From positions 44,266 to 108,265 of IMG/VR virus record IMGVR_UViG_3300021142_000012: 64,000 nt of DNA. The stretch is one strand, 5' to 3'. A program made the translations under genes and the position numbers. Positions 17,285 through 47,000 of this stretch are shown in pieces. Under the pieces are notes generated by a model, which worked only from the letters and a program-made list of their open reading frames with translations, was not told where the DNA came from and ran no database searches. How positions within the stretch are numbered: position 1 is the stretch's first letter; every line of letters starts with the position of its first letter. The DNA is from a virus.

Positions 17285-18826
17285 TTAAAGAATAACTGCT
17301 TCAATTACTTTTACATTCTGATCGGGATTGTCTTCTAATGCTATGGCCATTATTCCAAAAGGCGGAATAGTTTGATTTGTACCCCAATTAACTGTTACTG
17401 CGCAACCGTCTGGGCCTGCAACCAACTGGTCGCCTTTACAAACTGCTCCTAATACTTTAACTGGTACTCGTCCTTTAAGTGCAACATAAACACCGCCTAC
17501 TAGTTCGCTATTCATCATAAACGCAGGATTAGTTGATATTGCACCTAATGCATAATCACCAAACTGACAAGCTGTAATTTCTTTATCGCCGCCTACTGTA
17601 ACTACAGTACCAACTTCGTATTCTGCATCTGGTAGATATTTCTCTGCTAAGTCAGCATAGTTAGCTGCTGTAGCTGTTCCTGAGAAGAAATTAGCTAATA
17701 ATGAACCTGCTGTAACTGTTACACCATTAATAACTTGATCACTTGCTGTTCTCATTGCAACTGTGTCTGCAACTGCTGTAGCACTTGGATATTTTCCAAC
17801 ACCACCAAGTATTAATGTCTGTGCGGATGTTGCTGTTCCAGAGAATGTGTTAGCATAAACTGTACGCCATTGATTTAAATTAGTACCGATATCATTTGTG
17901 TTGCTGGTACCTGGTTGTAATGTTGTTCCGATTAGGGCTAGTGGAGTAACTGTTGCACTATTTGATTGAGTTTGAAATACAATCTTATCATTGATAATAT
18001 TTTCAACTGTAGGATACAGTGTTGCATCTCCTGTCCAGGATGCAGTATTGAATACGTGCAATCTTGCAGGATTTCCTACAGTATATCCAATATCGGCAAA
18101 CTGTACTAGTGTACTAAATGTTGCATTTGAAGATAATGTAAAGTTACTAATATCATAACCGGCTAAGCGATCACTGTTAGATGCTGTTCCCCAGAATCTA
18201 TGATTACTTGTAGTTTGACCTAATTGACTATTATTATTTGTGTAGGCCAATGTAATACCCTGATGAATGTCTGTAAATCCTGTAATAGGATTAACTGAAC
18301 CATCTAGTGTGAATGTTGCATCTGGGCTAATAATATAAACTACTTGATTATTAGCTAGTGCTTCGATGACTGCATGACTATTGCCTAATACATCACGAAC
18401 GCTGACAGATTGCATCTGTGTTGTTCCAGACCCTGCAACACCCTGTGGGCCAATTAGAACATAGCTACTTCCGTTCCAAGTATATAGTTGATTATTAACA
18501 CTGTCGTACCAAAAATCACCGGCAGTTAATCCTGTAGGTGCTGTAGAAGAAGTTGTCGAGCCGCCGGTTGTGCGCCAGTTACTATTTTGATCATAGAACT
18601 TTAGCTTGTTGTTTGATGTATCATACCATAATTGTCCGGGTAATGGCTTACCTGGAGCATTATTATTGGCAAAATTTTCTAACAGATAGACAAAATTTTC
18701 ATTTTGGATCGCACCGTAGCCGGCATAGTTTTTACCTACAAGTTTTAAATCAAGTGTTTGATCAACAGTTCCGTCGGCTACAACTGTAATTTGTGTTCCG
18801 TTATATCTATTAATGGTATATGGCAT
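17285..18826 (-). CDS. Tail fiber-like virion protein (family A copy 3)
   Basis: The 513-residue protein begins with a domain shared with the two upstream genes: a VDGTVDQ-type strand, LVGKNYAGYG, NENFVYLLENFAN, PGQLWYD and AGDFWYDS, then GPQG. The middle has repeated beta structure with SGTATSAQTLILGG and FFSGTATAANYADLAEKY. The C-terminal 100 residues (VALKGRVPVKVLGAVCKGDQL) resemble C-terminal domains of other phage fibers, some of which are chaperone or autoproteolytic domains; no cleavage motif is evident here. An ATAAATA late motif lies 22 bases upstream, so it can start its own transcript. Confidence 0.75.
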   Translation of the reverse strand: MPYTINRYNGTQITVVADGTVDQTLDLKLVGKNYAGYGAIQNENFVYLLENFANNNAPGKPLPGQLWYDTSNNKLKFYDQNSNWRTTGGSTTSSTAPTGLTAGDFWYDSVNNQLYTWNGSSYVLIGPQGVAGSGTTQMQSVSVRDVLGNSHAVIEALANNQVVYIISPDATFTLDGSVNPITGFTDIHQGITLAYTNNNSQLGQTTSNHRFWGTASNSDRLAGYDISNFTLSSNATFSTLVQFADIGYTVGNPARLHVFNTASWTGDATLYPTVENIINDKIVFQTQSNSATVTPLALIGTTLQPGTSNTNDIGTNLNQWRTVYANTFSGTATSAQTLILGGVGKYPSATAVADTVAMRTASDQVINGVTVTAGSLLANFFSGTATAANYADLAEKYLPDAEYEVGTVVTVGGDKEITACQFGDYALGAISTNPAFMMNSELVGGVYVALKGRVPVKVLGAVCKGDQLVAGPDGCAVTVNWGTNQTIPPFGIMAIALEDNPDQNVKVIEAVIL

Positions 18827-22665: not shown

Positions 22666-23280
22666 TTATACTCCTGCTAGGCCGGTAAGGCTTTGGATAC
22701 GTACGGTATAATCTATCTGTATAAGTCTGTTTAAACTTTTTTGTACAGGATGGAATATTACATGAGTCAATAAGGTAGCAACCTTAGTTGTATTATTGTA
22801 GGCTACTAGTCCTAGTTCGTCAAACACTGCTGGACTATTGTTATTATTTGAATTATCAAAGGCACTTTGTCCTGTAATATTTTCGCCGTAGTCTAATAGA
22901 CAAGTAACTAGTATATCAGAATAGTTAGTACCAGTTACGTGACGCACTTCCATAAAATTTCTCGTTGGATCTGTATTTAGAGTCGAATTTCCGTCAACTA
23001 CTTTACTGTAAGTTTGGTTGTAAAGTCCGGCATTAGATCCAGAGCTATTAGGAGTTAGATAGGTAATAATTCCGGTAGGATCAACTGCCGTGCCGCCTGT
23101 ACCGAATGCCATTTGGCTGATTAATCCTTGCCCTTGATTAGAAAGACTTTGAGCCAAAGCATAACTCATGTTCTCGTAATGGATAGCATTACGCTTGTTC
23201 ACATAGATTTCGTTAGAAACTGGATCAAATATCTTAATATGACCTTCGATATGTACACCTGTTTGTTCTTTACTCTGCAT
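22666..23280 (-). CDS. Virion structural protein, fiber region
   Basis: The 204-residue protein (HIEGHIKIFDPVSNEIYVNK, ALAQSLSNQGQGLISQMAFG, LTHVIFHPVQKSLNRLIQID) looks like a beta-rich capping or connector protein. I recall similar proteins among virion proteins of T4-like and other tailed phages, without a defined role. It follows a late-promoter motif and an AGAGAG ribosome-binding site and is the first gene of the fiber subunit set. Confidence 0.7.
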   Translation of the reverse strand: MQSKEQTGVHIEGHIKIFDPVSNEIYVNKRNAIHYENMSYALAQSLSNQGQGLISQMAFGTGGTAVDPTGIITYLTPNSSGSNAGLYNQTYSKVVDGNSTLNTDPTRNFMEVRHVTGTNYSDILVTCLLDYGENITGQSAFDNSNNNNSPAVFDELGLVAYNNTTKVATLLTHVIFHPVQKSLNRLIQIDYTVRIQSLTGLAGV

Positions 23281-23334: not shown

Positions 23335-24558
23335 TTATCTTGCGCCTGTTGTTTTTCTAGGATAGGTCGGGCCGGTGGTCCTAAATCCGTAATTTTGTTT
23401 TGGAAAAACACTACCAGTGCGTATTATTTGATAAATTAAATTTCCAGTAGGTGGCCCTAACCCTGTTACAGGATCCCAGCCACTGGTACCTTTGTAACCA
23501 CTAGTAATTTTAGTATTATTAGTACCTACAGTAATATCATAAAAAGCAGCAGTATGAGCATACGCAATAGCATTCCAATCTGGGCTAGATCTACGCACTC
23601 CGGTTAATTGTAAATTACGGGCTAATATTCCTGCTAGAGTCGGACAAGCAAGACTGGTTCCGCCGTAGCCGCCGATGCTACCATTGATATACAAAGCATA
23701 AGCATTCATTGGGCTAGCTATATCTGGGACACCTCGCATCATTAATGCCGTAGGACTACCTGTTACTCCATTAGTAATAGGTGTATAAAATAAACCAGAT
23801 TGCCAACTAGGTAAATTAAAGGTCGCACTTACTCCGCCACCGCCACCCCAGGTACTACCAAATCCCGAATCTCTATTATCATCTGTTTCACTCGATCTAT
23901 TATTTGCCACAGTAAGTGTGAGTTTTGTTCCACCTACTCCGATAGCATATGGACTTGATGCTGGATATACTACCCCTTCGGTAGTTGCTCCCGAACTTAC
24001 CACGCTGCCGTAGTCTCCGGAGGATGCTAAAAATGCAATTTTTGCATCAGCCAGTTGTTGAAAATGAATTTCATCACCGGTATACTCTGAGCTACCCCAA
24101 CTCATACTGCAAATGTGAACACCGTCTGATATAGCTTGAGCAACCATACTACTAATTTGATTACCAATATATATAGAAATTTCTGCTTGTGGAACAATAC
24201 AAGCTAGACAAAAAATATCTACAGTATTTTCTCCACTACCGTTATCTGGACTTAGACTAAATGTACCGGTTTGGCCATCTAACAAAACTTGTCTGATTGT
24301 AGGTGCTGTTAGTGACGAACTAATTAATCCGGCAGCTTGCAGATCTGCAAACGATTTGTTTAAATCCGACTGAAGAAATCCGCCGCCAAAACTAAAAATA
24401 GCAATTTTTATTCCGTAGCCTGTACTAGCAGGGATATTGTATGCTGTTGCTATTTGTGGACTAGAAAGATATCCAGCAGTTGGTAAAGAAGTTGGTACTA
24501 ATCCTGTTTGAGGATCTTGTACATCAATGGGAAATAAATGGACAGGTTGGAAAGTCAT
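23335..24558 (-). CDS. Sedolisin (S53) family serine peptidase, no prodomain
   Basis: The 407-residue protein has all landmarks of family S53 (sedolisin/kumamolisin) acid serine peptidases. Glu110 and Asp114 in GENTVDIF, followed by APQAEI-like VPQAEISIYIG; oxyanion Asp182 in ASSGDYGS preceded by SMSWGSSE; catalytic Ser302 in GGTSLACP; and the C-terminal calcium site YDITVG (Asp341) and GWDPVTGLGPP (Asp362). The N-terminus starts at the mature-enzyme position (SPQIATAYNIPASTGYGIKI); the usual prodomain of about 190 residues and a signal peptide are absent. It lies one base after a fiber gene and before fiber genes, so it is probably a virion enzyme that processes tail proteins or cuts host surface protein (inference). 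Start lacks a strong ribosome-binding site; translation is probably coupled. Confidence 0.92.
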   Translation of the reverse strand: MTFQPVHLFPIDVQDPQTGLVPTSLPTAGYLSSPQIATAYNIPASTGYGIKIAIFSFGGGFLQSDLNKSFADLQAAGLISSSLTAPTIRQVLLDGQTGTFSLSPDNGSGENTVDIFCLACIVPQAEISIYIGNQISSMVAQAISDGVHICSMSWGSSEYTGDEIHFQQLADAKIAFLASSGDYGSVVSSGATTEGVVYPASSPYAIGVGGTKLTLTVANNRSSETDDNRDSGFGSTWGGGGGVSATFNLPSWQSGLFYTPITNGVTGSPTALMMRGVPDIASPMNAYALYINGSIGGYGGTSLACPTLAGILARNLQLTGVRRSSPDWNAIAYAHTAAFYDITVGTNNTKITSGYKGTSGWDPVTGLGPPTGNLIYQIIRTGSVFPKQNYGFRTTGPTYPRKTTGAR

Positions 24559-24559
24559 A

Positions 24560-27166
24560 TTATTCTAATTTTAGATATGTTACAGTTGTTGTAATAGCCT
24601 GTGCTGATCCACTATTATTGTAAATTTTTAAATACATGTTTGTGCTTACAGTACCATCTGCATTATATCCAAACACTGCCGGAGTAAAATATGTAGTAGT
24701 TGCAGTTGTTGTAATTGCCTCGGCAATCACACCGGTTCCCGGACTAGGATCTGTTGTAATTGTTCTAGTGCTATCATTAGTCTGTGCAGTTGAGCTTGAA
24801 TAGACAGTTACCCATGCACCGGCTGATACTTGAATACTATACAGTACATAACCTTTGGCAGCGGCCACTGACACCGATGTTGATGCATTTACACCTAATG
24901 TACTAGTTGTATAAGATACTGTTGTTCTAGATGCTGTCGGGCTTGAACTAATGATGCCATTACTAATAGTAATTGTTGTACCGTCAACCTTGACACCGCC
25001 TAATGAACTAGTAGTTGCTGTTGGTAGAGTGTATGCACTTGCACTACTGATAACACCATTGCTGATAGTAATTGTTGTACCATCAACTTTAACACCACCA
25101 AGTGTTCCTGTACTGATTGTTCCTACGGTTGCTGTTGGTAGGTTGTATGCACTTGCACTACTGATAACACCATTGCTGATAGTAATTGTTGTACCATCAA
25201 CTTTAACACCACCAAGATTATTTGTAGTTGCCGTTGGCAATGTATAGGCCGGAGCACTAATTATACCGCTGCCGTTGATTACAATAGTGCTGCCATCGAC
25301 TTTAACACCACCTAGTGTGCTAGAACTTGCTGTCGGTAATGAATAACTCTGCGGTGGAGCTGCCCAATAAGGAACAGTACCGTTAGATGTTAAAACTTGT
25401 CCGGTGCTACCAACTCCAAGTTTTGATAATGTATTTGCAGCATTAGAATATAAAATGTCGCCTTGGGTATATGTAGTCTGTCCAGTACCGCCATATACTA
25501 CTCCTATTGTAGAAGCCTGCCATATGCCTGCGGTAATAGTGCCAACTGACGTTAAACTACTGTTAACAACATTGCTAGCTAAAGTTGTTCCGGTTAGCAC
25601 ATTAGCTGCGGCTTGAGCAACTGCGGCTACAGCAGAAATAATTCCGCTGCCATTAATGACGATACTAGTACCATCGACCTTAATGCCGCCAAGTACAGAC
25701 GAACTCGCTATTGGTAAACTATATGGCACTGCTGATATTATTCCAGCACTAGCTGTAATAGTTGTACCATCAACTTCAACAATACCTAATCTAGAATTAC
25801 TACCTACTGGAACACCACTAATTTTATTATAGGATAAGCTAGCTACCCAAGCAGGATCATAATAAGTTCCCGTTGTATATACTCCGTTAGTTACTGTGCC
25901 GGCATTGCCTGTAACACTGCCTGCAATTGGAGCGGTTACTGTCAATGAAGCTAGTGTGCCCACACTGGTAAGACTTGAATTTAAAATATTACTTGCTAGT
26001 GTTGTACCAGTTAGTTGATCAGCGGCTGCTATAGCAGTTGAAGAAATAGTACCATCTAGTGCAATAGTAATCGAAGTGCCATCTGGCTTGACTGCACCTA
26101 CCGCTGAGTTTGTAGCAATAGCTAAATTACCACTGGCTACTATTCCAGTTAATTTGCCGGCAGCTAGTGTACTAATCCATGTTGGATTGCTATAAGCTAC
26201 AGTAGTGTAAACTCCGTTAGTTACCGTACCAGCATTGCCTGTAATACTTCCTCTAATTGCGTTTGTAACTGTTAGATCAGTTAGTGTTCCAATACTAGTT
26301 AAACTACTATTGACCACATTACTTGCTAGTGTTGTCCCTGTTAAGGCGCTGGCTGCTCCATTTACAGATGTTTGTATTGTTGTTGTACCTCCAAGTGCTA
26401 CCGGAGTACCATTAATAGTAATTGTAGAGTTAGCAAGATAATTATTTGCTATAGGTGTACCATTCCATGTACCAGCAATAATTGTGCCTACACTGGTTAA
26501 ACTTGAATTTACTATTGTTGAATTTAGCACGGTTCCAGTAAGATTGGCTGAGGTGACTCCAGAAGGAATATTGGCCGAACCGCCTAATGCTATTTGTGTG
26601 CCGTTAATGGTTATATTTGGATTAGCTAGATACTGATTAGCAATTGGTGTTGCTGTCCAGGTGCCTGAGGTAATTGTGCCTACTCCTGTTAAACTTGAAC
26701 TAATAACATTACTTGCTAGTGTTGTACCAGTTATCGACGATGCTGCGGTTGTTCCCGTAGGAATAACAACTGATCCGCCAAGTGGAATAAGATTACCATT
26801 AATATTAATTCCGCCAGCAGCATTAATTGTCAATGTTTTTGTTACCGAATTAGTTACCAATGTAACGTTTGATCCAGCAGCAACATTTAATGTATCAGAC
26901 AAGGATGTTGCAGACAATCTTGCTTGTCCGGTAATTGCCAAATTTGAAAATCCCGGAGTTGCAGGCAATGTATTAACAATACTTGCATATCCTGTCGGGG
27001 ATAGGCTAACAGCTATACCTGATCCACCAACAACACCCTTAAAGGATGCTTGTGTCAATGCTGTATATAATTCAGTAAAGTTAGCATTAACTTTAGTAAA
27101 AGCCACACGCAACGTATCGCCGGTTCCGCTGTTAGCTGTTCCTATGTTTAATATTTGTTGTGACAT
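24560..27166 (-). CDS. Repetitive tail fiber protein
   Basis: The 868-residue protein starts with a conserved attachment-type domain (ILNIGTANSGTGDTLRVAF, KVNANFTELYTAL) that I know from virion proteins of T4-like aquatic phages. The shaft is made of repeats: one series built on TGTTLASNVVNSSLTSVGTI, and later a series built on LGGVKVDGTTITISNGVIS with four or five copies. The C-terminal 130 residues (STSVSVAAAKGYVLYSIQVS) look like a compact tip domain. One repeat pair is identical over 72 bases. It sits directly after the giant protein gene and before the sedolisin. Confidence 0.8.
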   Translation of the reverse strand: MSQQILNIGTANSGTGDTLRVAFTKVNANFTELYTALTQASFKGVVGGSGIAVSLSPTGYASIVNTLPATPGFSNLAITGQARLSATSLSDTLNVAAGSNVTLVTNSVTKTLTINAAGGININGNLIPLGGSVVIPTGTTAASSITGTTLASNVISSSLTGVGTITSGTWTATPIANQYLANPNITINGTQIALGGSANIPSGVTSANLTGTVLNSTIVNSSLTSVGTIIAGTWNGTPIANNYLANSTITINGTPVALGGTTTIQTSVNGAASALTGTTLASNVVNSSLTSIGTLTDLTVTNAIRGSITGNAGTVTNGVYTTVAYSNPTWISTLAAGKLTGIVASGNLAIATNSAVGAVKPDGTSITIALDGTISSTAIAAADQLTGTTLASNILNSSLTSVGTLASLTVTAPIAGSVTGNAGTVTNGVYTTGTYYDPAWVASLSYNKISGVPVGSNSRLGIVEVDGTTITASAGIISAVPYSLPIASSSVLGGIKVDGTSIVINGSGIISAVAAVAQAAANVLTGTTLASNVVNSSLTSVGTITAGIWQASTIGVVYGGTGQTTYTQGDILYSNAANTLSKLGVGSTGQVLTSNGTVPYWAAPPQSYSLPTASSSTLGGVKVDGSTIVINGSGIISAPAYTLPTATTNNLGGVKVDGTTITISNGVISSASAYNLPTATVGTISTGTLGGVKVDGTTITISNGVISSASAYTLPTATTSSLGGVKVDGTTITISNGIISSSPTASRTTVSYTTSTLGVNASTSVSVAAAKGYVLYSIQVSAGAWVTVYSSSTAQTNDSTRTITTDPSPGTGVIAEAITTTATTTYFTPAVFGYNADGTVSTNMYLKIYNNSGSAQAITTTVTYLKLE
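25031..25216 (-). repeat. Perfect 72-base direct repeat in fiber gene
   Basis: Bases 25031-25102 and 25145-25216 are identical; the offset is 114 bases (38 codons), in frame. They encode two copies of the LGGVKVDGTTITISNG shaft repeat. A more diverged copy lies just before (about 24952-25010). Confidence 0.85.
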
Positions 27167-27169
27167 TTT

Positions 27170-30100
27170 TTATCCTTGGTCAATCGTTATATTAGTGTTA
27201 TCGTCTGTAATTGCTGCACTATCAATACTTACAATTTGATGTTGATTATATCCAGTGTACCAAGCTCCCGGTACCGCTTTGATAAATGTAGCATAAGGGC
27301 CATTATCCTCTTGTATATTTACAGTAGAATCCCATATTTGGCCAGTTCTCTTAACTATAGTTACACGAGTTCCAGCAGTTATTGGTGTTGTTAATCTCAA
27401 TGAATTAGTTGTACCGTCTACTGCAAATTCAGCATCAAACTGTACATCACCTTCGGGACTTGTCGGAGCCTTGTTAACATTATAAACAGTATATGGATTT
27501 TTCTTTAGTCGAATATTTCCAATAAAATATGACCACTTTGCAGCATCATTGTTAAAATTAGTGCTGCTAGTGTTGGCAACGATACATTTATATTGATAGG
27601 ATGCAAAATTAACAATATCACCTACATTATATGCAACACCCGGGGCCCAATCTACTGAATTATATCCGCCTACAAATACATCAAGCTCGTTACTTGCGCC
27701 ATATCCCACCGGAACTGAACTAGTAAATCCGCTAGCATAGGTCCATAGAGTAGATGCCTTCTTAGGAGTAAATGATAATGGAACTATACTAGTACCGTCA
27801 CTTATAATCTGGCTTGTTGTAATTGTATCCTGATATGGTATTGTTTCGCTAGCACCAATTTCCTGTACAGTGGCGCCTGCTCGATGGACCATAGCAACAC
27901 CTGTTCCTAGTGTACCACGGCGAAGCTGTCCAAGTACGTTACCGGTAACTGTAAAGAATTCAATACGTTCACCGCGGATTTCTATAATACCTGGTTTGTT
28001 GTTTGCTGGGCTCGGTAAATCAAATGTGCTGGCATCAACAACTGTGATCGTTAGATCGGTAGGATATAAATCTACAGCAAGGTTAGTTTGTTTATTAGCA
28101 TTAAGGCGTTTGAATACAACTCTATTCAACATGTCTTTGAATTGCATATAAGCTACGCCAGATGTTAATACGTTATTACCAAATGTTAGGACAACTAGCT
28201 TATCATTAGGTGCAGGGAATTTAGCCATCTGCAGGGTCTGTTTATCAGATAACACAATGTAATCAATATTAGGACTTAATAAATTACCGTTTTGTTCTAA
28301 CCATACATAGTCGCTGTCAACCACTGGACGATCAAGTAGTATGGTACCATTTGCAATGGCTTTATAATTATAGAACTGTATAGTATCCGGAGTATAACTA
28401 AGTGCTGGATTGTTGTTTACTGTGGTAGTTTGCATATCAAGAATATCATGATTATAACTACTCATTACTTCAATGATATGTCCAGCATCATAATTCTGTG
28501 CAAACGTAATTTGGCCAGTGGTTGAATTGTAAGTGTATCCTGCTCCAGTAGAAATACTAATGCTCAGTGTACTACCAGCATAAAGATTATAAATTACTTT
28601 AGTAATTTTAATTGTAACACCACTGAGATCAATACTATAATCAACACCCGGTTTCAATAAAATATTATTAATTGTTATAATAAAATCTGTAGCATTAGCA
28701 GTGAATGGCGGAAATTTAGTATTATCAATTGTGTAATTTAATTTGTTATTAGCTAGTTTAAAATAACTCAAGCTCGGTGGAGTTAATATTTTGTTATCTA
28801 CACGAACTATCATACTTTTTTCTACAGGAACTGTATTGCCAATAGGATATTGTAATGTATAAGTTGCACTACCGTTGGGTATAATTTTTTCTTTCTTAGT
28901 AACTGCAAATGTTTGTTGACTACCGCTAACAATGACATAGCTGATTAATGCACCAAATGCAGGCGGACTAGCAAATCTTAGTCCGATCAGATTTGCAAGA
29001 ACATATGTTTTATCAGTTTCAAATAATTGATATGCCACATTTGATTGTGCTGTACCGTCAATATATACCAAACTAGTATTTGGTATTACATAGTTAGACT
29101 TAGTAATAAATTCTGTAGTAACGCCATCGCCAACAAAATGATCAATATCTAATATATTAGCACCGCTAAATCCAATATTAAAAATACTAATCATTGCTCC
29201 GGCAGCAGGCGGATTATTAAATAGAATTTCATTATTTCTATAATCAACAGTATAGTCATCAATCACTGTCATAATCTGTGATACACCCTGCGTGACAGTT
29301 TTGACTATTACTGCGTTTTTACTATTAGGAGTCTGCGCCATACTAAACTGTGTAGTAATTCCATCGGCGATATGATTATCAACTTTGATTGTAGCCGCAC
29401 CGTTTAGTGGTTTTTCAAATACCTTAATTGCCACTGCATCGACTACTTGTCCAGGAACAACCTCTTCGGGGGCCGGGCTAGTAGTTGGTGTTACAAATTG
29501 ATCACCATCAACTAGAATATCATCGGCTGCCAGACCTGTAGCTGAACTGTAGGCAAGATCGCCGCCGGTTAATGCTGTATCGTAATCTGCTTGCTGTGGA
29601 GCAAATGATCCATCGCTAGTGCTTTGACGTATAAAGAATTTATCATTAGAGTTAACAGTAAATGTATTTGGTATTACTACTGTATTAGATATCCCATCAG
29701 CTGTTATAGTCTGCATTATAGCTGTAGAATTGGTTTGTCCAGAGGTTCCAAAATTTGCATCATCTAGTCTTATTGGCTGTAGATAACTGCTTATAGATAG
29801 TACTGAACCTGTAGCTATTGGTGTGTTTAATGTTATTAGTCCTTTACCAAATGGATTCAACTGTGTAAGAACTGTAAGTGGTCTAGTAAATGCTACAGTA
29901 GATCCGCCAGCAATATCTGTATACAAGATTTGACTAATCTGTACATCTGTTGAATTTAATATTGCTGTTACCTGTGTATTAAGTGCAATATTATTTGCTA
30001 CATATGGCGAAATTGTAACCGAATCGTTTACAAATATACCAACAGTACTAGCTAAGGAAATTACATTACTACCTGCATGATTACTTAGATATGTGCTACC

Positions 30101-33100
30101 CGAAATACTATGTGCAGTTCCTAACGCTGAACTTGCTGTAACTGTAATTGTTGGAGCAATATCTCTTGGATTGTATGTATATTGTAATGTTGCACCATCA
30201 CTAGTATAATTTTCAGTATACAATTGACTATAATAAACATTCAATAATGTACCGGCTGTTGGAGTGTACGGCAATGTAAATGAGTGTGTATTTGCGGCTA
30301 CCTGTACTACATAGTCTGTAGATGTGCTGTCAATACTATCCCACTTGTCTGAATAGTATGGTAAACTTCCCCAACCAGAGTTAATTTCAAATCCAATGGC
30401 ATCGACCACAACACCACCATAATCAATACCTGTCATTAGCTGTGCTAGATCTTTACCTTGCTGACCAGATTGTGGGTTATAAAGAAACTGTATACGATCA
30501 GCGGCATTTAATAAGGACCAATCTGTTTGATAGTTTACGGTTATTGTTGCTCCGTTAGCAGGAGCGGTTATAAATGTAACTGTACCATAATAATTAGTAT
30601 AGCCTCTAGATGTGTCACTAGTAATTGCTAGAGTATATAAGTCTCTTAGGACAGGAGTAGCGTGTTTGCTACCTGGCATGGTAATAGTCACTGTGCTATT
30701 TCCAATAGAAATATTTGGTGCCCATGCTAGCGCAAATTGTACACGCGAACCTGTGCCTGTAAATGTTTCAGTATGTGTTAAACCAGTTATCAAATAATTT
30801 TGTGTTATTCGATCAAATTTAATTCCAATAGTATTAGTACGTATTACACTATTTCCAATAATTGCAACAACTTTAGCCGGTGTGCCGCTTACATCATAAC
30901 CACCATTAAGTGTAACTGTAGGTGCTGCTAGATATCCTTTACCGCTAGCACCATATTGATCAACATTAGTTAATTCTATTCGATTAACTTTACCATTCGC
31001 TATAAAGGCACGTGCTTTTGCACCGGCGCCAACCGGACTAGTAAATTCTACTGTAGGTTCGCTGATATATCCACTGCCACCGTCGACTATTTTAAGATCA
31101 ACTACACTAAATCCAACATTGTCTAGCCAATTTTTCCAAGGATATGTTGTTATTAAGTTATTATCAGACGTAATAACACCATTGCTAAATCCAGTATTAA
31201 TTCCCTGGAATAAACCATTAGCATATGTTCCAGGAAGATCAAAGTCAGTAATCATATTCTGATCAAGTTCAATACTATTATAGTTACTGACATATTCTCT
31301 AATCTTAGATCTGTAAGGCTTAACTTCGTTAATATAATCTTCAAAGTTACTTAGATTGTCAGGTTGATATGTAACAGGTTGATTTAGACTACCAACATTG
31401 TGCTCTGCCTTGATAAAACTAGTTTTAAATATCCAATCTAACTCAGTCTGTTCACTGAATGCATAACGTACATTATAGAAGAATAGATCTAGATAATTTT
31501 TTCTTAAGTCATCAATTAAAATATTATTTTTTATTGTATTAAGAATTATTCTTAATTCTTTAGTAGCAGTTAGATCAAAATTATTACCGTCATATAATGA
31601 ACCGTCGTAACCGTAGACTGTATCGGTAAATTCATATAATGCCGAACTAAACTGAACTGTTCCGTTTTCAATACCTATTACATTATAGCTTTGTGTGTAG
31701 TCGATACTAGTACTGTTAGCATATTTTTGTAATAGAGTCCAACCACCCTTATTATTATTTTTTACCTTAACAGTATCACCAATAGCTGGAGAAATTGTTG
31801 CTAGATCTGTAAATGTATCGACAGCAAGTGTAGGACTAGAATTTTGATTGAATCCAGTTGCATACCAATCAATATATGTTCTGTATTTTCTTACATCATA
31901 ACTTTGTGTTCTAACTCTTGACCAAGTCTGCGTTGTAATGTCGTATCCATAAATGCTCCAAGATCCGCCAGCCTGGGTATCTTGATGTACTAATATAGAA
32001 TATGTTCTTGTAGTTAAAAGAGTATTGCTGTCATAACCTTCGCCCGCAGCTATAACTGTAGCGCCAGTAATTGCACCTGTGGTACTATCAATAGTTGCAC
32101 GTAAGACTGCACCATCACCACTACCAATCACAGAGATATAAGGGGCTTGCAGATATCCGCTACCGGCAGTCACTATGTTAATGCCTGTAATTTTTCCATC
32201 TACAATTATCGGAGTTAATTTAGGCGTAACAAAATTTCCTATATTAATGTAAGATAATTCAGTATCAGTATCTTTTACAGCATCATACTCGCCAAGGATA
32301 ATATTTGGTTCTGTTTCATATGTGTCCAACGGTGCTATATTTTTTTGTTCTGCTATTTGATTAGCTGCCATTACTAAATTTGTTTGCTCGATTACTTGCT
32401 TCAATGCTTCAAATCGATTTAAAAACATACTTTGACGAGGTTGGAATTCTATACCGTATCGAAGTTTAGGTGGCAGACTAGTATCAGGAACTTCTCTATC
32501 AGTAGCGTCCTTACCACACAAACTATCAATCCACTTTTCTTCAATACGTGCTGGTAATTGTGTAGTCGGGTCATTACTAATAATAGCATACTGACGGTGT
32601 ATATTTCGTTGGGTTGGTTTGTCTATGGTCCAGTACTCTACAGATAATACTGCATCAGTATTTTTTAATAATGTTTTAACATTAGCCAATGCAAAGCTAT
32701 TTGGACCAGTGAGAGCAAGGAATTTGTAGCCTTCGCCTCTTGGATTTGCAATTAAATTTGAAACACTTTGCGCACTTACACTACGACCTAAAACATTTGG
32801 AACTGTAGTTTTATTTTTTACCCAGAAATAATATGTGTTTTTTGCACTATTACTAATGTTATCATATTTGGTTACAACACTATAGATCGAAGTATTGTAT
32901 AAAGTTTGACCGCTAATGCCTTGAGTTAATCCTGCATCTGTATCAGCTAGGCTATTCCATCTATCAGGTGTATATGTAGTTCCAACCCATTCATAGATGT
33001 CAATGCTTGCTCCGGGGAATAGTGTAGACCAATTGCTTGTTCTGTAGGCAACATCAACGTCATGACTATCAATAAATTTAGCTGTGCTAAGATCCCACCA

Positions 33101-42100: not shown

Positions 42101-43303
42101 TGTAGCACTAGCTGTAATAACATCCTTATGGAACCAACGATTATATCTTGACCAAGCATTATGATCCTGAGATGATCGATTAATTAATATGTAATCTTTA
42201 ATACTTGCAAATCCGCTAGCATCAGCGAACGGTCTGGCGTCAAATGGTGTTGTATCAAACAATACTGCTTCATTTGTAGTATAGGGGCTAACAACTTCTA
42301 AAGTTGTTTCTTTAATTAACTTAATAGCTACACCAACACCTTCAACATAATAATTACCGGTAGCGTATTCAGCTGGGACTACATTGCCCTCAAAGCGAAC
42401 TTTCATGCCGTTACTTAATGAAACACCGCTAGGTAATGTATAAGTTTTTTTACCTAAAATATCAGCAGTTACATTAAGGTCTGTATTTTCAGTTATATCA
42501 TAAATTTCAAATACGCCGCCAAGGTCTGGATCTCGGTTACTAACATAATATAAAATATTTGGAGCATCCGATGTAACTCTAAATGTAATGGTTCCAACTT
42601 CAACAGCATTACCAGATAATCCGCTAGGTGGAGTATAGTAGTCAATGACACCACCATCACGCACAGTTTTAATAGTAAACGGATTACCAGGGCTATTAAT
42701 TTCAAACGTATATGTTTGGCCGCGATATAACTTGATTGTTGGATTTGGAGTTAACCCATCAGGTGTAAACACATATTGATTATTACCGTGTTCATCCTGT
42801 GTTACTACACTTACAAATGTGCTAGAGATGCTGTTTTGTTGTCCGGCAATTGCAATCGTATCAGGGCCGTAAGGCAACCAATAGTAGTCGCTAAAGTTTA
42901 CAAATTTGTCCCAATCAATATGTGGACTCCAAGAATACATTTCTTGTTTGTTTAATCGAGCATGATTAAGAGTGTTACTACCAAATACATTTAATTGATT
43001 AATATAATCTTGATAATCTTTAAAAAATGTTGTGTTGCCTAGCGTATCCTGTACAGTTAGTCCAGGTTCTAATTGATAATTTTGTCTTGTTTGATCAGCG
43101 GCATCAACAAAAATATCTGTTCCTGTAGATGCTTTTGCATTTTCGCGGCCAATGTATCCACTAATCTTATTGACTGTTCCGGGCTGTATTAATTGATCAA
43201 TTGTCGCTTGGATAAATTTCTTATTAGCGTCGGACTGATAGATTCGCGGAATTAGATCCGACCCTTGACTAGTTGTTGTACTAGGGATTATATTATCAGC
43301 CAT
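27170..43303 (-). CDS. Giant (5377-residue) modular tail/baseplate protein
   Basis: One uninterrupted frame of 16.1 kb. The N-terminal 150 residues (DLIPRIYQSDANKKFIQAT, MYSWSPHIDWDKFVNFSDYYWLP) look like a wedge-attachment region. Modules include at least five short aromatic W--Y--GD-V-Y---YY-A units resembling chitin-binding-like folds (about 27540-27660, 36520-36600, 38040-38110, 38580-38660, 38990-39060); six or so FG-GAP propeller repeats (FG-SLA, LFVGAPG, LVISAPG, LAIGSPLD, IVVGAPS; residues about 2210-3230); and beta modules GxGIPxGTTV and GSGY--xP-V inserted among them. Its position after gp6 is that of gp7 in T4, and of large VrlC-like proteins in cyanomyoviruses (recollection). ATG overlaps the gp6 end by 8 bases. 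Probably baseplate periphery or adhesive structure. Confidence 0.82.
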   Translation of the reverse strand: MADNIIPSTTTSQGSDLIPRIYQSDANKKFIQATIDQLIQPGTVNKISGYIGRENAKASTGTDIFVDAADQTRQNYQLEPGLTVQDTLGNTTFFKDYQDYINQLNVFGSNTLNHARLNKQEMYSWSPHIDWDKFVNFSDYYWLPYGPDTIAIAGQQNSISSTFVSVVTQDEHGNNQYVFTPDGLTPNPTIKLYRGQTYTFEINSPGNPFTIKTVRDGGVIDYYTPPSGLSGNAVEVGTITFRVTSDAPNILYYVSNRDPDLGGVFEIYDITENTDLNVTADILGKKTYTLPSGVSLSNGMKVRFEGNVVPAEYATGNYYVEGVGVAIKLIKETTLEVVSPYTTNEAVLFDTTPFDARPFADASGFASIKDYILINRSSQDHNAWSRYNRWFHKDVITASATINGNVPELNQESRAIRPIIEFEADLKLFNFGNVAIDDDIDVIDTVTTDAMSNIEGAVGYIVDGVPLVQGHRVLFIADTDVLVKNQVFTVDFIIVGAQRQIHLVPTQTPIENNTILVKSGNLNQSKMYWYNGSTWVAGQQKTRTNQAPLFDIVDNNKVSFSDPTAYLGSTFKGTTIFSYGVGTGSNDVALGFPLAYKNIDNIGDIVFNFTLATDSFTYKTTSDVFTINIDTGYLVKTGYTQQLSYVNGWKTCAVPTIQAAVRIYKNSNILNDFPLDIFDNITNLNDLVVHVYVDGYRVDPSLWSIHNGTVYKQIHFIYPPLPTQIVTIKAYAAQPINSNGYYEIPVNLQNNPFNNTISNFTLGEVIDHVSSIVDNSLTFVGSYPGAGNLRDIGDSTAYGTKFVQHSGPLSLGLYHISTEANNIIKAIEKSRDDYQSFKRNFITAATNLGIDADPVVQVNTILQRINQDKAKTGPYYFSDMAAYGAAIRRDLKVVDYRIQNYPLSNPFSLDKLSTKSVLVYHNNVQLLYGRDYTFDPQGFVVITATLANGDIITTYEYENTNGSFIPETPTKLGLWPKYQPKIYLETNLITPTLVIQGHDGSQVAAFGDYRDAIILELEMRIYNNIKAKYDSEIFDIHDLIPSYNRTNDYSLTEFNEALAPNFYKWVGNIGRDFTKPASYDRNNPLTFNYRGHYAPDGRDIPGYWRGIYRWIYDTDRPSEAPWEMLGFTDQPTWWITLYGPAPYTNDNLVMWQDIAAGLVKDPSGAPYVITKFVRPYLLAHIPVDDQGNVINPYLAGVAQGVNTNLTDADYVFGDVGPVEAAWRRSSHYAFSVIRTALVLQPAKTFGVLLDRSRIVRNLAGQLVYSNTGLRIRPTDIQLPNIYSSTSVSSTAGLINYLVNYILSDTLLSYKSYQYDLKNMVAKLSYRVGAFTSKEKFNLLLDSRTPLSTGSIFVPQENYTIILNSSSPVKKITYSAVIVNKLSDRFEVTGYSQTEPYFKYYPYLGSGATVNIGGISEGYVVWTAYQQYISGQVVSYNKQFYRVISTHTTETTFQIKYYSLLGSLPIVGGVDAIIRTKWDRNNPITVPYGTDFLTIQEVVDFLLGYGEYLKDQGFIFDNFNGNLAAVTNWETSAKEFIFWTTQNWSTGQDKWADWIPNQPVAYQAIVKYNGDYYQAIQLVAPSASFDYTKYVKLDGLSGVGSSVISLSPAADSITFSSTLSVADSIQNKFNTYEIFKVDGTPLEPNFINLYRKDNATTYKTTTADGIYGASFYLIQKEQIILLDNSTLFNDTIYNPETGYRQERIKVSGYVSTNWYGGFDIPGFIYDQAIIQNWSAWQDYALGDVVKYKEYYYTADQRVVGSEKFNIKAADGTVNWVQLAAKPTAKLLPNWNYKASQFTDFYSLDSDNFDASQQKVAQHLIGYQKRQYLDNIIQDDVSEFKFFQGMIREKGTQNVLNKLFNVLSADNLESLTFYEEWAVRLGEYGASKAYENIEFILDESLFKTNPQGFELDETLSPPYNDLIIRQVPTDIYLKPMGYNSNPWPLVNNYRSFLRTAGFVRTSEVKVTLAHLSDITSQDITNFYSGDYIWIGFEGVSWNVYRMTLANINIVNITYSQNQLIITSDSDHSLLAGEYIGIKEVTGFAGFYQIVAVDNVTITVSAPNLANPPAVPFTEQHRAIIFILTSNRATTINSGDQRLLQDIKKGELVWVDSATFNGEKLWSVWQNIPVYNLSEIDYGYPSDGLGLGRSATLSQDGLLLISMTNAGQILVWDKPITSATSWTQRESIAIPTIANNDSFGGNPNASSIIGEVLALSYDKTWLAVGSPAASYAASHWKGSWSQSSTYSTKDIISYNGIYYQATQNVTTNTPPVVTATARGTVVYANISASVVGTTGTWYSVNYSPTTAFTAVQRIVVNGTTGLYVGQTVSGIGIPTATIISTVVINSNNTATLTLSNAVTSITATTVITFGGALVTIGSNSVFQTTSLVVNSTVGIIPGMLVQGEGITAATLVLSIDATNKIIILDTPTYGQPTGKILFGANTIAVSSSTQGLLIGNQMTVIGVNIPTGATLTGSTLNSAGNSYILFLSQQVTGTVSGTGTFATIAKQTTATSGSNTITVSNNTNILVGQSVTGLGIPTGTTVTGINGTAIGISSSTTGVVNSVVVFGLNQISVSSVVGNIAALQQVIGVGIPALTTVVNVNGATVFLNTNITQTVYGTLQFQGGSTYWTIIEYIPVDSTGTNSSLTAQGAVSIYKKDSNNIFTLVDTILSPNPISNERFGASLAFVNHASATGQSAYSLFVGAPGANSGVGKVYQFKYENAIQTTAGYNASSSSDSSVISVIVTNAGSGYTTNPTVNIAASTVSGSIPAKATSIIGLISINIISTGAGYHVNDLLTVVGGTYSQAATIRVASIGTNGTITSAVIYNPGAYTVAATVAPSIGHTPLTKNVPVTGGNGTSASFDLFFGVVSIAVVIPGSGYDKKALPLVTFSSTTGTGASAYATIGSTIGVSDTTNIVPGMLVSNATTINGVASIGNAFTSSQTVTQILQNPLYPTVRAGSVVISAAPDITPTGILYFTIPGWAYDSSFSAPTVDSNNQPISLYGFGSSLATNTSGIGNSLVISAPGTVVNSGATLVTTPGAAIVFRFNTATLSWTQSQIITGKTYGYATSVALSTYGGSLTLQAGQSQTFVEYLAIGSPLDGTGNVQIFYYDTASSQFLSYQSLFNIKPKNQGQFGYKLAFGYFSDTLVVYSNNADAQITTTFDKGNTVFDSNATRFRHTESNSGSIAVYDADTATGTKFTIGEILENATSSNSKYGQSIAIGTYNIVVGAPSATITAVLNNCSIVGTILTVGSVTTGQVVVGMTLAGAGLAPGTTIVSGNSGRYLVSISQTVSNIIITGTSTIANGKLFEYTKPANTFAWNPIHLEEPKIDISKIKRAFIYDRSTNQVLTYLDVIDPIQGRIPGPADQEIKYKSFNDPAIYSQGDSTVNVRPGMAWTSAQVGQLWWDLSTAKFIDSHDVDVAYRTSNWSTLFPGASIDIYEWVGTTYTPDRWNSLADTDAGLTQGISGQTLYNTSIYSVVTKYDNISNSAKNTYYFWVKNKTTVPNVLGRSVSAQSVSNLIANPRGEGYKFLALTGPNSFALANVKTLLKNTDAVLSVEYWTIDKPTQRNIHRQYAIISNDPTTQLPARIEEKWIDSLCGKDATDREVPDTSLPPKLRYGIEFQPRQSMFLNRFEALKQVIEQTNLVMAANQIAEQKNIAPLDTYETEPNIILGEYDAVKDTDTELSYINIGNFVTPKLTPIIVDGKITGINIVTAGSGYLQAPYISVIGSGDGAVLRATIDSTTGAITGATVIAAGEGYDSNTLLTTRTYSILVHQDTQAGGSWSIYGYDITTQTWSRVRTQSYDVRKYRTYIDWYATGFNQNSSPTLAVDTFTDLATISPAIGDTVKVKNNNKGGWTLLQKYANSTSIDYTQSYNVIGIENGTVQFSSALYEFTDTVYGYDGSLYDGNNFDLTATKELRIILNTIKNNILIDDLRKNYLDLFFYNVRYAFSEQTELDWIFKTSFIKAEHNVGSLNQPVTYQPDNLSNFEDYINEVKPYRSKIREYVSNYNSIELDQNMITDFDLPGTYANGLFQGINTGFSNGVITSDNNLITTYPWKNWLDNVGFSVVDLKIVDGGSGYISEPTVEFTSPVGAGAKARAFIANGKVNRIELTNVDQYGASGKGYLAAPTVTLNGGYDVSGTPAKVVAIIGNSVIRTNTIGIKFDRITQNYLITGLTHTETFTGTGSRVQFALAWAPNISIGNSTVTITMPGSKHATPVLRDLYTLAITSDTSRGYTNYYGTVTFITAPANGATITVNYQTDWSLLNAADRIQFLYNPQSGQQGKDLAQLMTGIDYGGVVVDAIGFEINSGWGSLPYYSDKWDSIDSTSTDYVVQVAANTHSFTLPYTPTAGTLLNVYYSQLYTENYTSDGATLQYTYNPRDIAPTITVTASSALGTAHSISGSTYLSNHAGSNVISLASTVGIFVNDSVTISPYVANNIALNTQVTAILNSTDVQISQILYTDIAGGSTVAFTRPLTVLTQLNPFGKGLITLNTPIATGSVLSISSYLQPIRLDDANFGTSGQTNSTAIMQTITADGISNTVVIPNTFTVNSNDKFFIRQSTSDGSFAPQQADYDTALTGGDLAYSSATGLAADDILVDGDQFVTPTTSPAPEEVVPGQVVDAVAIKVFEKPLNGAATIKVDNHIADGITTQFSMAQTPNSKNAVIVKTVTQGVSQIMTVIDDYTVDYRNNEILFNNPPAAGAMISIFNIGFSGANILDIDHFVGDGVTTEFITKSNYVIPNTSLVYIDGTAQSNVAYQLFETDKTYVLANLIGLRFASPPAFGALISYVIVSGSQQTFAVTKKEKIIPNGSATYTLQYPIGNTVPVEKSMIVRVDNKILTPPSLSYFKLANNKLNYTIDNTKFPPFTANATDFIITINNILLKPGVDYSIDLSGVTIKITKVIYNLYAGSTLSISISTGAGYTYNSTTGQITFAQNYDAGHIIEVMSSYNHDILDMQTTTVNNNPALSYTPDTIQFYNYKAIANGTILLDRPVVDSDYVWLEQNGNLLSPNIDYIVLSDKQTLQMAKFPAPNDKLVVLTFGNNVLTSGVAYMQFKDMLNRVVFKRLNANKQTNLAVDLYPTDLTITVVDASTFDLPSPANNKPGIIEIRGERIEFFTVTGNVLGQLRRGTLGTGVAMVHRAGATVQEIGASETIPYQDTITTSQIISDGTSIVPLSFTPKKASTLWTYASGFTSSVPVGYGASNELDVFVGGYNSVDWAPGVAYNVGDIVNFASYQYKCIVANTSSTNFNNDAAKWSYFIGNIRLKKNPYTVYNVNKAPTSPEGDVQFDAEFAVDGTTNSLRLTTPITAGTRVTIVKRTGQIWDSTVNIQEDNGPYATFIKAVPGAWYTGYNQHQIVSIDSAAITDDNTNITIDQG

Positions 43304-46300
43304 TTGTTGATCCGTATGTTGAACTTGTAATTACTTGACTTGTTGCATTAGTTGTTACTGCTGTACCTGCAATTGATTTGATTCCTGTAGCTGTGATATC
43401 TGTAATAATATCTATATCGCTAACAGTTGCCGTGCTTATGAATAATTCATTGCTAGCACTGGTTATTTCAAATAAACTACCAAAACTTAAACCACCTAGC
43501 CTTGGGACGATTACGAAACTAGAAATATCTGGAGCCATCTGTGTCATCACATAAGTTGCCATTTCTGTAAAATAAAAAGTATCTCCAAAATCCCAATTAC
43601 CTAAACTAAAATAATCATTAATAGCTGTAATAATTCGAGATTTAATATCGTTATCACTTAATACTTCGCTTGAATTTTTGATTACTTTAAATGATGCTTG
43701 TAATTCTGCAGGAGCAGTTTGTCCAAATAAAGTTTTATATTGTACTGAATGATATATGATTTCATCAGACAAACTCTTAATCAAATTAAGATTAGGCGAT
43801 AATAAATCATATAACTCATCAGTTCCTGGAGGCAACGGCTGGGTAGTTGATACCCCAGCTATCCACTGCCTAAATGCAGTATCATAATTGTTTGTTAATA
43901 CATAAACGTCAACAATGTTACTTGCACCGGGATCGATCCTACTTTCATAATCTGCATTATGGATATATTGAAATTTTAAATTATCTCGGCCTACATAAAC
44001 TTTATAATCTAATGTAGGCACGAGTGTAGCTGTAGCTAGATTTAATTTCTTAACAACATTAGTATCTTGGAAGTAAAAATATTGTCCATCAGTATATTGT
44101 GTAAGTTGGCCAACACTTGCTTGACTTGGCATGATCATTACAGTTGGATTTGCAGGATCATTATATGCATACCGATAATCTTCTTGCCCTTGTGCTATAG
44201 TATATTTTTGTTCTATAATGTAAGTAGTCAGATTAAATATTACTTGTGCAACATTTAAATTAGTTGAATTAGGCACACTTAATCCAATAGTACTACCATT
44301 AACTGATGTAACTGTAGCGTAATTGCCGATGCCTTGTCCTGTTACAGTCATTCCAGTAACAATACCAGTTGGATCTTGGACTAAAATTGTAGATTGTAAA
44401 ATAATACCGGTAGCATATGTCTGCACCACTGGTGTAACTAAATCTAAAAATAGTTGCGGATTATCTACTGTAGAATTAACTTCAGATGCTGTAAATCCTA
44501 TAACTAGTTTACTATTATCTACATAGCCGTCAAGGCCTTTCCATTCTTCTACAATATTCCAGTTATAGTCTTGACCGAATGGTATACGATCATTGGGCTT
44601 TTGATTTATGCTTAAAACACTGATAGTATCTTGTACAATCATGTTGTTAATACTATCATAAATTTTCTTGCTAGAATCAAAATAGAAACTAATTTGTGCC
44701 GCACTTTCGAACACATATCTGCTAGCACGATTAGTAATTGTATATGTCACATTATCTGTGGTGAATAATAACAACCAGCTGGAATCTTGATTTTGATTAG
44801 TTATGTCGCCTTGCTTGCCAAGACTAAATGCACTGACCCTGTCTAAATTACTTTCGTAAATAATTTGCCATGTCTGTGTAAATGCATCGTAACGCAGACC
44901 AAATGCCATGTTAGCGTAAATTAAATCAATCATCGCAGTAACTACTGAAGGAGTAATACTAGTAGTCCAAGGCGGAATAATTTGAGAAATTATTGGCGTA
45001 GCAATTATTGATCCTGCACTGTTAGTCAATGCCGGCAACGGTTTATTTAAGGTAACCGGACCTAATCCTGTAGACAATACAGTTGATCCAGTTGATGCAT
45101 ATGCAGCAGTGCCATCATCAACAACTAGCGATACTTCGGCCCAAATGTAAAGCAATGCTGAAGGAGGTAATGTAGCACCTAGTGTATATGGTGTAAGTGT
45201 GTTGGCGTTATTAGAATCAAAATAGTATCCAGAGGGTGGCACAAATTTTATAAGACTGCCAACTTGGAAATATTTTAGATCTGTTGCCGTAAATTGTCCT
45301 AGGCGTAATGGAATTTTTGTAATGGCATCACCGATATAACCAGTACCGGAAATTGAATCTGTTGTCTCTTGATACCATGCATAGTTAGCACTAGTCTGTA
45401 TTGTATTAATGTAGTTACTGTAGTAGTAATTCTTTAAATTATTATTAGCTAGAATATCATATACATTATTATAGATAACATCATAGATGTCAGTTTTTGT
45501 TAGATATGAAAATAAAAATGTCGAGCTATAAACTTCATTAAAAAGAACACCGTCTGTACCAAACAGCGTAGTTGAACCATACTTACCTGTTGGATCTGTA
45601 AGATCAAAATAACGACTAATTCCGCTGCTTGTTCTGTTAATGGCTTTAACTTTAGCAACTTGGGTACTAGCACTTAGTGGGCTAATGTTATAGTCCTCTG
45701 CCGTGATCATTCTATTTTGTGTATAGTAAGTCTGCGGAGCATTAGTTTTAATACTATCGTTTGATTCTGCGGCTGCTGCGTTAGAAACTCCTACTGTCAA
45801 TCCCATCGTAATAGATAAGTTTTGAGTTTGACCGGCAGCGTTAATATACGGTACTGCTATTGTAACACTCTTTATATCTGCTGTACTGATTGTATATGCA
45901 AGCCCGTTACTTACGCGATAGTATGCTCTAAAATTACCGAGTGGTAAATTACCAAATGTACCATCACTAAATTGCACACTAACTTGATCATTTACTCTAC
46001 TGATCACAGCATATATGTTTTTAATATTTTTATTTAGACTATTATAAATTACATTATTGCCCGACAATGATGGGATCTGTGTCCAATATTCTGACTCATT
46101 GCCGTTGTTGTCTAGACGATATAACCAGACATCTGAATCGTTAATATTATTTGCATCAATATCAATACTTTGATTACTACTTGGTTGACTTATGTTAAAC
46201 ACACCTTGATTTAATGTGCCCTGTGTAAAATTAAAGAAGAATCCGTTGGCAGAACTTCCAGGTCCATGCCCATCATCTTTATAAACACAAGCTAGTGTAT

Positions 46301-47000
46301 TTCCAACCTCTGGCGGCTCTTCATAGATATATGATTGTCCTTTGAATGTTGTACTAGTAACTTCAAATGCCATTGACCGTCCTGCTACTGTTTTTGTAAA
46401 GCTATAAACAGGTACACCGGAAATAGCACTATTAATTCTATATTGTTGAGTCGGTATTCCATAGATATTCGCAGAAGCTGCTGGGCTACCAAATTGCTGT
46501 GTACTCGGAAATGCTGCATTTATAACTCTAATAAATTGATCATACCAATTAGTATTACTTGAATCGTTCCAAACAATTGGCTGGCCGCCAAGGTTTCTGC
46601 CGTTAGCATCTGTTATATTTTCATCTGTAGTAATACTAGTAACTTTTAATAGACCGCTTGCAGCAGTATTGCGCTTGGCATTATAACTGATCATGCGAGC
46701 AAGACGTAGGATACTATCTCTGCGTTCGCTTAGTTCTAAGAAGTTATCACGAGCATTTAAATCAACGCGGAAAGCTATGCTTTGGCCCAAGAATGCTATC
46801 AAATCTATTAGGGCAAGGTATTCGCTAGACTCAACATAATCGTTAAAATCTTCTGGATAATTCGTACGAATATAATCAATCATCGTGCGACGCAGATTTT
46901 CAAAGTCGTAGCTAGTGAAGTCGGCATTGCGGAAAGATTGATAAATCTTCTTCCAATCTTGGGCTAGTAATAGCCTATTCTGTCTTGTAGTTACACTCAT
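43296..47000 (-). CDS. 6: Baseplate wedge subunit gp6
   Basis: The 1234-residue protein has the gp6-type start: LLLAQDWKKIYQSFRNADFT, YDFENLRRTMIDYIRTNYPE, SEYLALIDLIAFLGQSIAFR and NARDNFLELSERRDSILRLA. gp6 dimers form the ring of baseplate wedges, joining gp53, gp25 and gp7. It is about twice the length of T4 gp6 (660 residues); inserted beta modules, including a GMTVTGQGI copy near residue 905, account for part of the excess. It follows gp25 as in T4 and has a late-promoter motif 18 bases upstream of its ATG. Confidence 0.9.
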   Translation of the reverse strand: MSVTTRQNRLLLAQDWKKIYQSFRNADFTSYDFENLRRTMIDYIRTNYPEDFNDYVESSEYLALIDLIAFLGQSIAFRVDLNARDNFLELSERRDSILRLARMISYNAKRNTAASGLLKVTSITTDENITDANGRNLGGQPIVWNDSSNTNWYDQFIRVINAAFPSTQQFGSPAASANIYGIPTQQYRINSAISGVPVYSFTKTVAGRSMAFEVTSTTFKGQSYIYEEPPEVGNTLACVYKDDGHGPGSSANGFFFNFTQGTLNQGVFNISQPSSNQSIDIDANNINDSDVWLYRLDNNGNESEYWTQIPSLSGNNVIYNSLNKNIKNIYAVISRVNDQVSVQFSDGTFGNLPLGNFRAYYRVSNGLAYTISTADIKSVTIAVPYINAAGQTQNLSITMGLTVGVSNAAAAESNDSIKTNAPQTYYTQNRMITAEDYNISPLSASTQVAKVKAINRTSSGISRYFDLTDPTGKYGSTTLFGTDGVLFNEVYSSTFLFSYLTKTDIYDVIYNNVYDILANNNLKNYYYSNYINTIQTSANYAWYQETTDSISGTGYIGDAITKIPLRLGQFTATDLKYFQVGSLIKFVPPSGYYFDSNNANTLTPYTLGATLPPSALLYIWAEVSLVVDDGTAAYASTGSTVLSTGLGPVTLNKPLPALTNSAGSIIATPIISQIIPPWTTSITPSVVTAMIDLIYANMAFGLRYDAFTQTWQIIYESNLDRVSAFSLGKQGDITNQNQDSSWLLLFTTDNVTYTITNRASRYVFESAAQISFYFDSSKKIYDSINNMIVQDTISVLSINQKPNDRIPFGQDYNWNIVEEWKGLDGYVDNSKLVIGFTASEVNSTVDNPQLFLDLVTPVVQTYATGIILQSTILVQDPTGIVTGMTVTGQGIGNYATVTSVNGSTIGLSVPNSTNLNVAQVIFNLTTYIIEQKYTIAQGQEDYRYAYNDPANPTVMIMPSQASVGQLTQYTDGQYFYFQDTNVVKKLNLATATLVPTLDYKVYVGRDNLKFQYIHNADYESRIDPGASNIVDVYVLTNNYDTAFRQWIAGVSTTQPLPPGTDELYDLLSPNLNLIKSLSDEIIYHSVQYKTLFGQTAPAELQASFKVIKNSSEVLSDNDIKSRIITAINDYFSLGNWDFGDTFYFTEMATYVMTQMAPDISSFVIVPRLGGLSFGSLFEITSASNELFISTATVSDIDIITDITATGIKSIAGTAVTTNATSQVITSSTYGSTNG

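Follow-up and report, generated by a model that had tools for sequence, protein, structure and literature searches.

A freshwater phage sedolisin shares its C-terminal tag and fibre-tip partner gene with S8 proteases of marine phages, suggesting interchangeable tail-fibre proteases

The S53 peptidase gene and its tail operon

The window, which is the whole 64,000-nucleotide stretch of viral DNA analysed here, contains a peptidase gene set among tail genes (Table 1). An earlier note, made from the sequence letters alone, had placed this gene between a repetitive fibre and other fibre genes, within the late structural run. That placement is correct: the gene lies between the repetitive fibre gene and the p204 and collar-fibre genes, and it shares its strand with the tail run at 9215-52673. 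The gene's position had also been given correctly; its strand had been left out, and the open reading frame is on the minus strand. The baseplate wedge protein points to a contractile-tail (jumbo myovirus-like) operon. The p204 gene is context and lies outside the mobile cassette described below.

Table 1. Features at the peptidase locus (coordinates are those of the window).
Feature	Coordinates	Strand	Remarks
S53 peptidase gene	23335..24558	-	407 aa (P0001); Pfam and kumamolisin match
S53 catalytic domain, residues 34-382	23413..24459	-	E110, D114, D182, S302; calcium-site D341/D362
C-terminal tag, residues 383-407 (...FPKQNYGFRTTGPTYPRKTTGAR)	23338..23412	-	R393/P400/R401 invariant in 35/35; pLDDT <50 in isolation
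Repetitive tail-fibre gene, 868 aa	24560..27166	-	homologues directly upstream in 43/45 S53 loci
TAATATG junction: fibre stop, one base, protease start	24556..24562	-	probable translational coupling
Fibre-tip domain, last 120 residues (phrog_15343 region)	24563..24922	-	beta sandwich predicted, pLDDT 96
p204 (phrog_11259), next gene downstream of S53	22666..23280	-	68-84% conserved in syntenic relatives
Baseplate wedge protein	43296..47000	-	contractile-tail context

Two other genes of the run deserve mention. A single 5377-aa open reading frame fills 27170-43303 (minus strand), flanked by the baseplate wedge gene on one side and fibre genes on the other; at this position relatives and Agrobacterium phage Atu_ph07 have large structural proteins. 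At 17285-18826 (minus strand), a 513-aa fibre has a sub-threshold match to PF11962 (Peptidase_G2, an autoproteolytic cleavage domain) and is possibly a self-cleaving fibre chaperone.

Judged by its residues and predicted fold, the peptidase is an S53 sedolisin of the kumamolisin subgroup. The earlier note had proposed a Pfam search and a predicted structure compared with kumamolisin, and both bore out its assignment. The only Pfam match was PF00082 (E 2.1e-11, 44 bits), a model that spans the wider subtilase clan, so that the match is that of a clan relative. A phmmer search against the PDB matched residues 34-379 to kumamolisin (1t1g, E 1.7e-32). In the alignment, the four residues named in the earlier note as catalytic (E110, D114, D182 and S302) correspond to the tetrad of kumamolisin; the protein does not have the Asp-His-Ser triad of S8 subtilisins and aligns with the S53 tetrad instead. 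These four residues are invariant in 70/70 distinct phage homologues across deep divergence. The calcium site, also called intact in the note, is a predicted metal site whose D341 and D362 are retained in nearly all of the phage copies.

An AF2 model built from an alignment of 35 relatives had a pLDDT of 84 and a pTM of 0.87. When it was searched with Foldseek, the top matches were all S53 structures, with kumamolisin-As and kumamolisin the best in the PDB (E 1.5e-25, TMt 0.84). The gene is under purifying selection, with dN/dS of 0.07-0.16 against relatives in the informative pairs; near-identical pairs carry little information. Kumamolisin and kumamolisin-As (1t1g, 1gt9, 1sio; MEROPS S53) therefore resemble the window protein in their Glu/Asp/Asp/Ser tetrad, calcium site and fold, at about 30% identity. 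They differ in being secreted and in having a large prodomain, whereas the window enzyme has neither, is encoded in a tail operon, and carries a C-terminal tag that we propose to be a dock.

The missing prodomain and the phage S53 family

Neither the S53 protein nor any other part of the whole 108,265-bp virus record matched the prodomain family PF09286 (Pro-kuma_activ) in Pfam searches, and we therefore rejected the possibility that another gene of the record supplies the prodomain. No signal peptide was apparent on inspection of the protein sequence. The earlier note was right about both absences, but it made the missing prodomain look more exceptional than it is. Twenty-six bacterial S53 homologues have signal or lipoprotein leaders but no room for a prodomain; proteins of this description make up about one third of the fetched cellular homologues, and six were checked by Pfam. 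Given such bacterial homologues and the sister phages compared, a missing prodomain is not exceptional in itself, and we did not treat the prodomain as obligatory for S53 membership.

Relatives were collected from IMG/VR, where a single-protein query gave 45 loci and an alignment query gave 135, of which the best 80 were used. No S53 homologue was found by tblastn in 50,697 phage records, and the 407-aa protein had no PHROG match. The phage proteins come in three architectures: prodomain-less, as in the window; prodomain-bearing; and fused to Ig-like repeats (L020 and L022). PF09286 was found in 19 of 35 aligned phage S53 proteins. The prodomain-bearing sisters (the L029-L045 group) share with the window enzyme its catalytic clade, tag, upstream fibre tip and synteny; they differ in having kept the Pro-kuma_activ domain, still with no signal peptide.

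A maximum-likelihood tree separated the phage S53 proteins from 30 cellular sequences with 100/100 support. The monophyly of the phage proteins is thus relative to their closest cellular sequences, the only cellular ones sampled. The prodomain-less phage proteins formed one clade in the same tree, again at 100/100, which suggests that the prodomain was lost once within a monophyletic phage family. The nearest cellular relatives are secreted peptidases, many of them from acidophilic or peat and bog bacteria and archaea. Identity between the phage proteins and the sampled cellular ones is at most about 35%, and together with the separation in the tree this argues against a recent capture. A near-identical phage contig, with adjoining genes 99-100% identical, has its S53 gene (L006:10001-11264) split by a 40-bp tandem duplication, which is either a natural variant or an assembly error.

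A fibre tip and a C-terminal tag shared by two protease families

The search of related phages for the same gene next to fibres, another of the checks proposed in the earlier note, returned the strict upstream arrangement given in Table 1. The adjacency persists where the other neighbours are unrelated (L005, L017, L021, L024-L028, L044). The gap between the fibre and S53 genes is 1 nt in 19 of 22 pairs, typically with the sequence TAAT|ATG, and from this junction the two genes are probably translationally coupled. What the fibre homologues of the S53 loci have in common is their C-terminal 120 residues, the tip domain. It matches cyanophage tail fibres in BFVD; no PDB fold matched it at E<=0.001, and weak matches to GOLD domains and the HFTV1 turret were not used. 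Two scans of the collection with the tip as query gave at least 585 and at least 580 confirmed stretches. Among the matches listed, which include redundancy, the tip was the extreme C-terminus in all but one of 207 tip-bearing open reading frames, and the gene that followed was an S8 protease in 113, an S53 protease in 81 and something else in 13.

The proteases next to the tip end in a motif of the form R-P-x-x-G-x-x-[YFW]-P-R. Its R/P/R residues are invariant in all 35 aligned S53 proteins and in 58/58 S8-type proteins, and the segment is predicted to be disordered in the S53 model. Invariant residues in a disordered segment are a typical combination for a short docking motif, which is what the tag is likely to be. 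Among distinct viral S53 proteins, tag and tip occurred together in 48 and were both absent from 13, with the tip alone in 3 and the tag alone in 1 (Fisher's exact p = 4.5e-10, indicative only because the sequences are related). Of the four discordant cases, three trace to two split genes; in the fourth, the tag is a variant.

Across both families, the tag was present in 103 of 107 distinct complete tip-adjacent proteases (34/36 S53, 69/71 S8) when forms split by an insertion were counted, using a loose pattern written after the sequences had been seen. The strict pattern alone was found in 89 of the 107 (33/36 S53, 56/71 S8). Both S53 proteins that missed the tag are split genes; of the two S8 misses, one shows a variant form of the tag, and the second probably falls outside S8. 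Outside the tip-adjacent proteases, 6 of 606 open reading frames had the strict tag, and none of 1440 shuffled sequences did. One of the six represents the latter half of a split S53 gene, and the other five look S8-type by their N-termini. Within the window the tag was found on no protein other than S53, so we rejected the idea that it is a general tag of tail proteins there. Neither tag nor tip was found among the cellular S53 loci listed.

In some proteins the tag lies internally, or a fusion to structural domains takes its place, and this suggests that attachment is lasting. S53 proteins with neither tag nor tip are fused to Ig-like structural repeats (L020) or have other C-termini. The C-terminus of the L020 fusion was considered as a homologue of the 5377-aa window protein and rejected, as no homology was found. 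Other untagged phage S53 proteins end in Trp-rich repeats or other segments, again with no tip upstream. Those of L238, L243, L244, L249, L251, L252, L254, L255 and L266 end in KTxxTTWxxVxxV repeats and closely follow a gene of structural size; these repeats are possibly another tail-attachment module.

The S8 counterparts are present in cultured phages. In the Synechococcus phages S-CREM1, S-H9-1 and S-CAM1, the tip gene is followed by an S8 subtilisin with the tag sequence RPTTGHIFPR, RTSGMTFPR and RPVEGATYPR, respectively, and gene coordinates place tip and S8 genes side by side in S-H38, S-RSM4, S-CAM4, S-WAM2 and ACG-2014j as well. PF00082 matched 56 of 58 aligned S8-type proteins, in which the His and Asp columns are invariant (58/58) and the Ser is kept in at least 90%. 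These cyanophage enzymes (phrog_9158; S-CREM1 UYA57622, S-H9-1 QPB08157) are like the window enzyme in their upstream tip, 1-nt junction and tag. They differ in belonging to another peptidase family (Asp/His/Ser) and in having an N-terminal region of their own. In the S8 protein of S-H9-1 (L048:4374-6380), the tag is followed by a domain, residues 557-667, with a match to phrog_677 (baseplate wedge tail fibre connector), and other S8 copies have cupredoxin-like domains after the tag.

In a quick tree of 125 tips, made from few columns by a short search, switches between the S53 and S8 labels number 8, and 3-4 of them are forced by well-supported branches. These forced changes disfavour a single co-inheritance of tip and enzyme type, and it appears that the two kinds of enzyme have replaced each other on a common dock. 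The recurrence of the freshwater phage tag and fibre-tip gene with another protease family in marine phages suggests that these are interchangeable tail-fibre proteases.

Probable attachment to the virion and proposed function

Evidence on virions comes from relatives, chiefly in cyanophage S-SCSM1. The virion proteome published for this phage comprises 45 phage proteins (PMC9602691), and the virion notes in its GenBank record are taken to reflect that mass-spectrometry list. The tip-bearing fibre, SSCSM1_231, is noted there as a virion protein. So is SSCSM1_228, a LamG-fused S8 relative of 1411 aa that is untagged and does not adjoin a tip. A third protein with this annotation, the 368-aa tail protein SSCSM1_235 (L363:20594-21700), ends exactly in RPQSGQMYPR and has no recognisable protease domain and no PHROG match; the tag may therefore be a more general tail-attachment signal that anchors other proteins too. 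By its annotated sequences, S-SCSM1 would thus carry a member of the protease family in its virions and would have the tag on one tail protein of the particle, the protease there being an untagged S8. The available portions of the S-CREM2 and S-SZBM1 proteome papers do not mention a tail protease.

Read from these sequences, the S53 enzyme is linked to one structural tail gene and carries a conserved candidate attachment element, as would be expected of a fibre-docked tail enzyme. We consider it highly probable that it is attached to the virion. The earlier note's suggestion of a virion-carried protease is likely to be right, by way of the S-SCSM1 relatives. Its broader reading, an active-type S53 peptidase of the tail, is well supported by the invariant tetrad, the predicted fold, the placement, the common tag and the virion annotation of relatives. 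The note's interpretation as a whole is supported in part. It did not include the tag on the C-terminus, the fibre's tip domain, the sisters with a prodomain or the S8 counterparts.

We propose that the S53 protein is made in the cytosol with neither prodomain nor signal peptide, by coupled translation right after the fibre gene. Its disordered C-terminal tag would bind the C-terminal tip domain of the fibre, the proposed receptor, so that the finished virion would carry the protease at the fibre end. During adsorption the enzyme would cleave a host-surface protein, which could be an S-layer, an outer-membrane protein or a protein matrix; the earlier note's idea that the enzyme may open a proteinaceous host coat such as an S-layer is thus plausible. 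Known sedolisins work in acid, and for this reason the S53 enzyme could be inactive while in the cytosol, which is near-neutral. The dock would be portable, with S53 and S8 enzymes exchanging on it. Taken as a whole, this chain from active peptidase to host-surface cleavage seems to us rather probable.

The strict coupling to one fibre gene and the tag would serve equally well to bring an enzyme to its substrate. The tag might then recruit the protease during assembly only, so that within the infected cell it trims the fibre or some different tail protein, and the host surface would not be its target. The earlier note had raised such fibre trimming, and we found no positive evidence for it. 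In S53 and S8 loci alike, the tip forms the very C-terminus, and nothing there looks like a segment to be removed. Fusion of S53 to structural repeats and the virion annotation of the S8 relative point to lasting attachment. Acid-type enzymes should also be poorly active in the cytosol, from what is generally known of S53. We regard a maturation protease as unlikely. Less probable again, and by a clear step, is a protease fold retained solely to decorate the tail, in a structural or receptor-binding role. Protease-like tail domains could act as adhesins, and some S8-type copies do not match simple Ser/His motif patterns, but the conservation of the catalytic residues in both families, described above, argues against a non-enzymatic role. 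That the protein is a captured host exoprotease, working as a secreted, nutrient-acquiring (auxiliary metabolic) enzyme and lying in the tail operon by chance, is very improbable: its nearest cellular relatives are of this secreted kind, but it has no signal peptide, is no recent capture, and keeps its link to the tip while other neighbours change.

The preferred reading, a fibre-docked peptidase acting on the host surface, has a parallel among enzymes that digest sugars, which are well known on phage tails. Conserved anchor segments join tail glycan depolymerases to fibres or to one another, and by analogy the present system would likewise combine interchangeable enzymes with a conserved docking element. 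What sets it apart is the use of a peptidase, with a short motif at the C-terminus of that enzyme as the docking element. To our knowledge, proteases on tail fibres are hardly documented. In the literature searched, which lay outside most subscription journals, no paper describing a phage sedolisin was found, in agreement with the earlier note's remark that no phage tail sedolisin had been characterised, and the tag/tip cassette appears to be undescribed.

The chances are about even that this is a widespread plug-in system of phage tails, in which one conserved tip domain holds interchangeable S53 or S8 enzymes through a short C-terminal motif and with which many aquatic phages breach host protein coats. 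If so, host-surface protein would be an obstacle through which many aquatic phages cut their way, and exchange of the cutting enzyme would be explained by a tag that is short and transferable. The idea is directly testable, since cultured Synechococcus phages have the S8 version. Two PHROGs listed as unknown, phrog_9158 and phrog_15343, would also gain a proposed function, and the tag/tip pair could serve for mounting enzymes on fibres.

Tip-bearing fibres also have a second, untagged class of partner on their 3' side (L046:4603-6933, L048:951-3254, L363:16709-18679 and L363:18939-20594). These proteins have a common C-terminus like GDTxTxSGxExYEVI... and no Pfam match.
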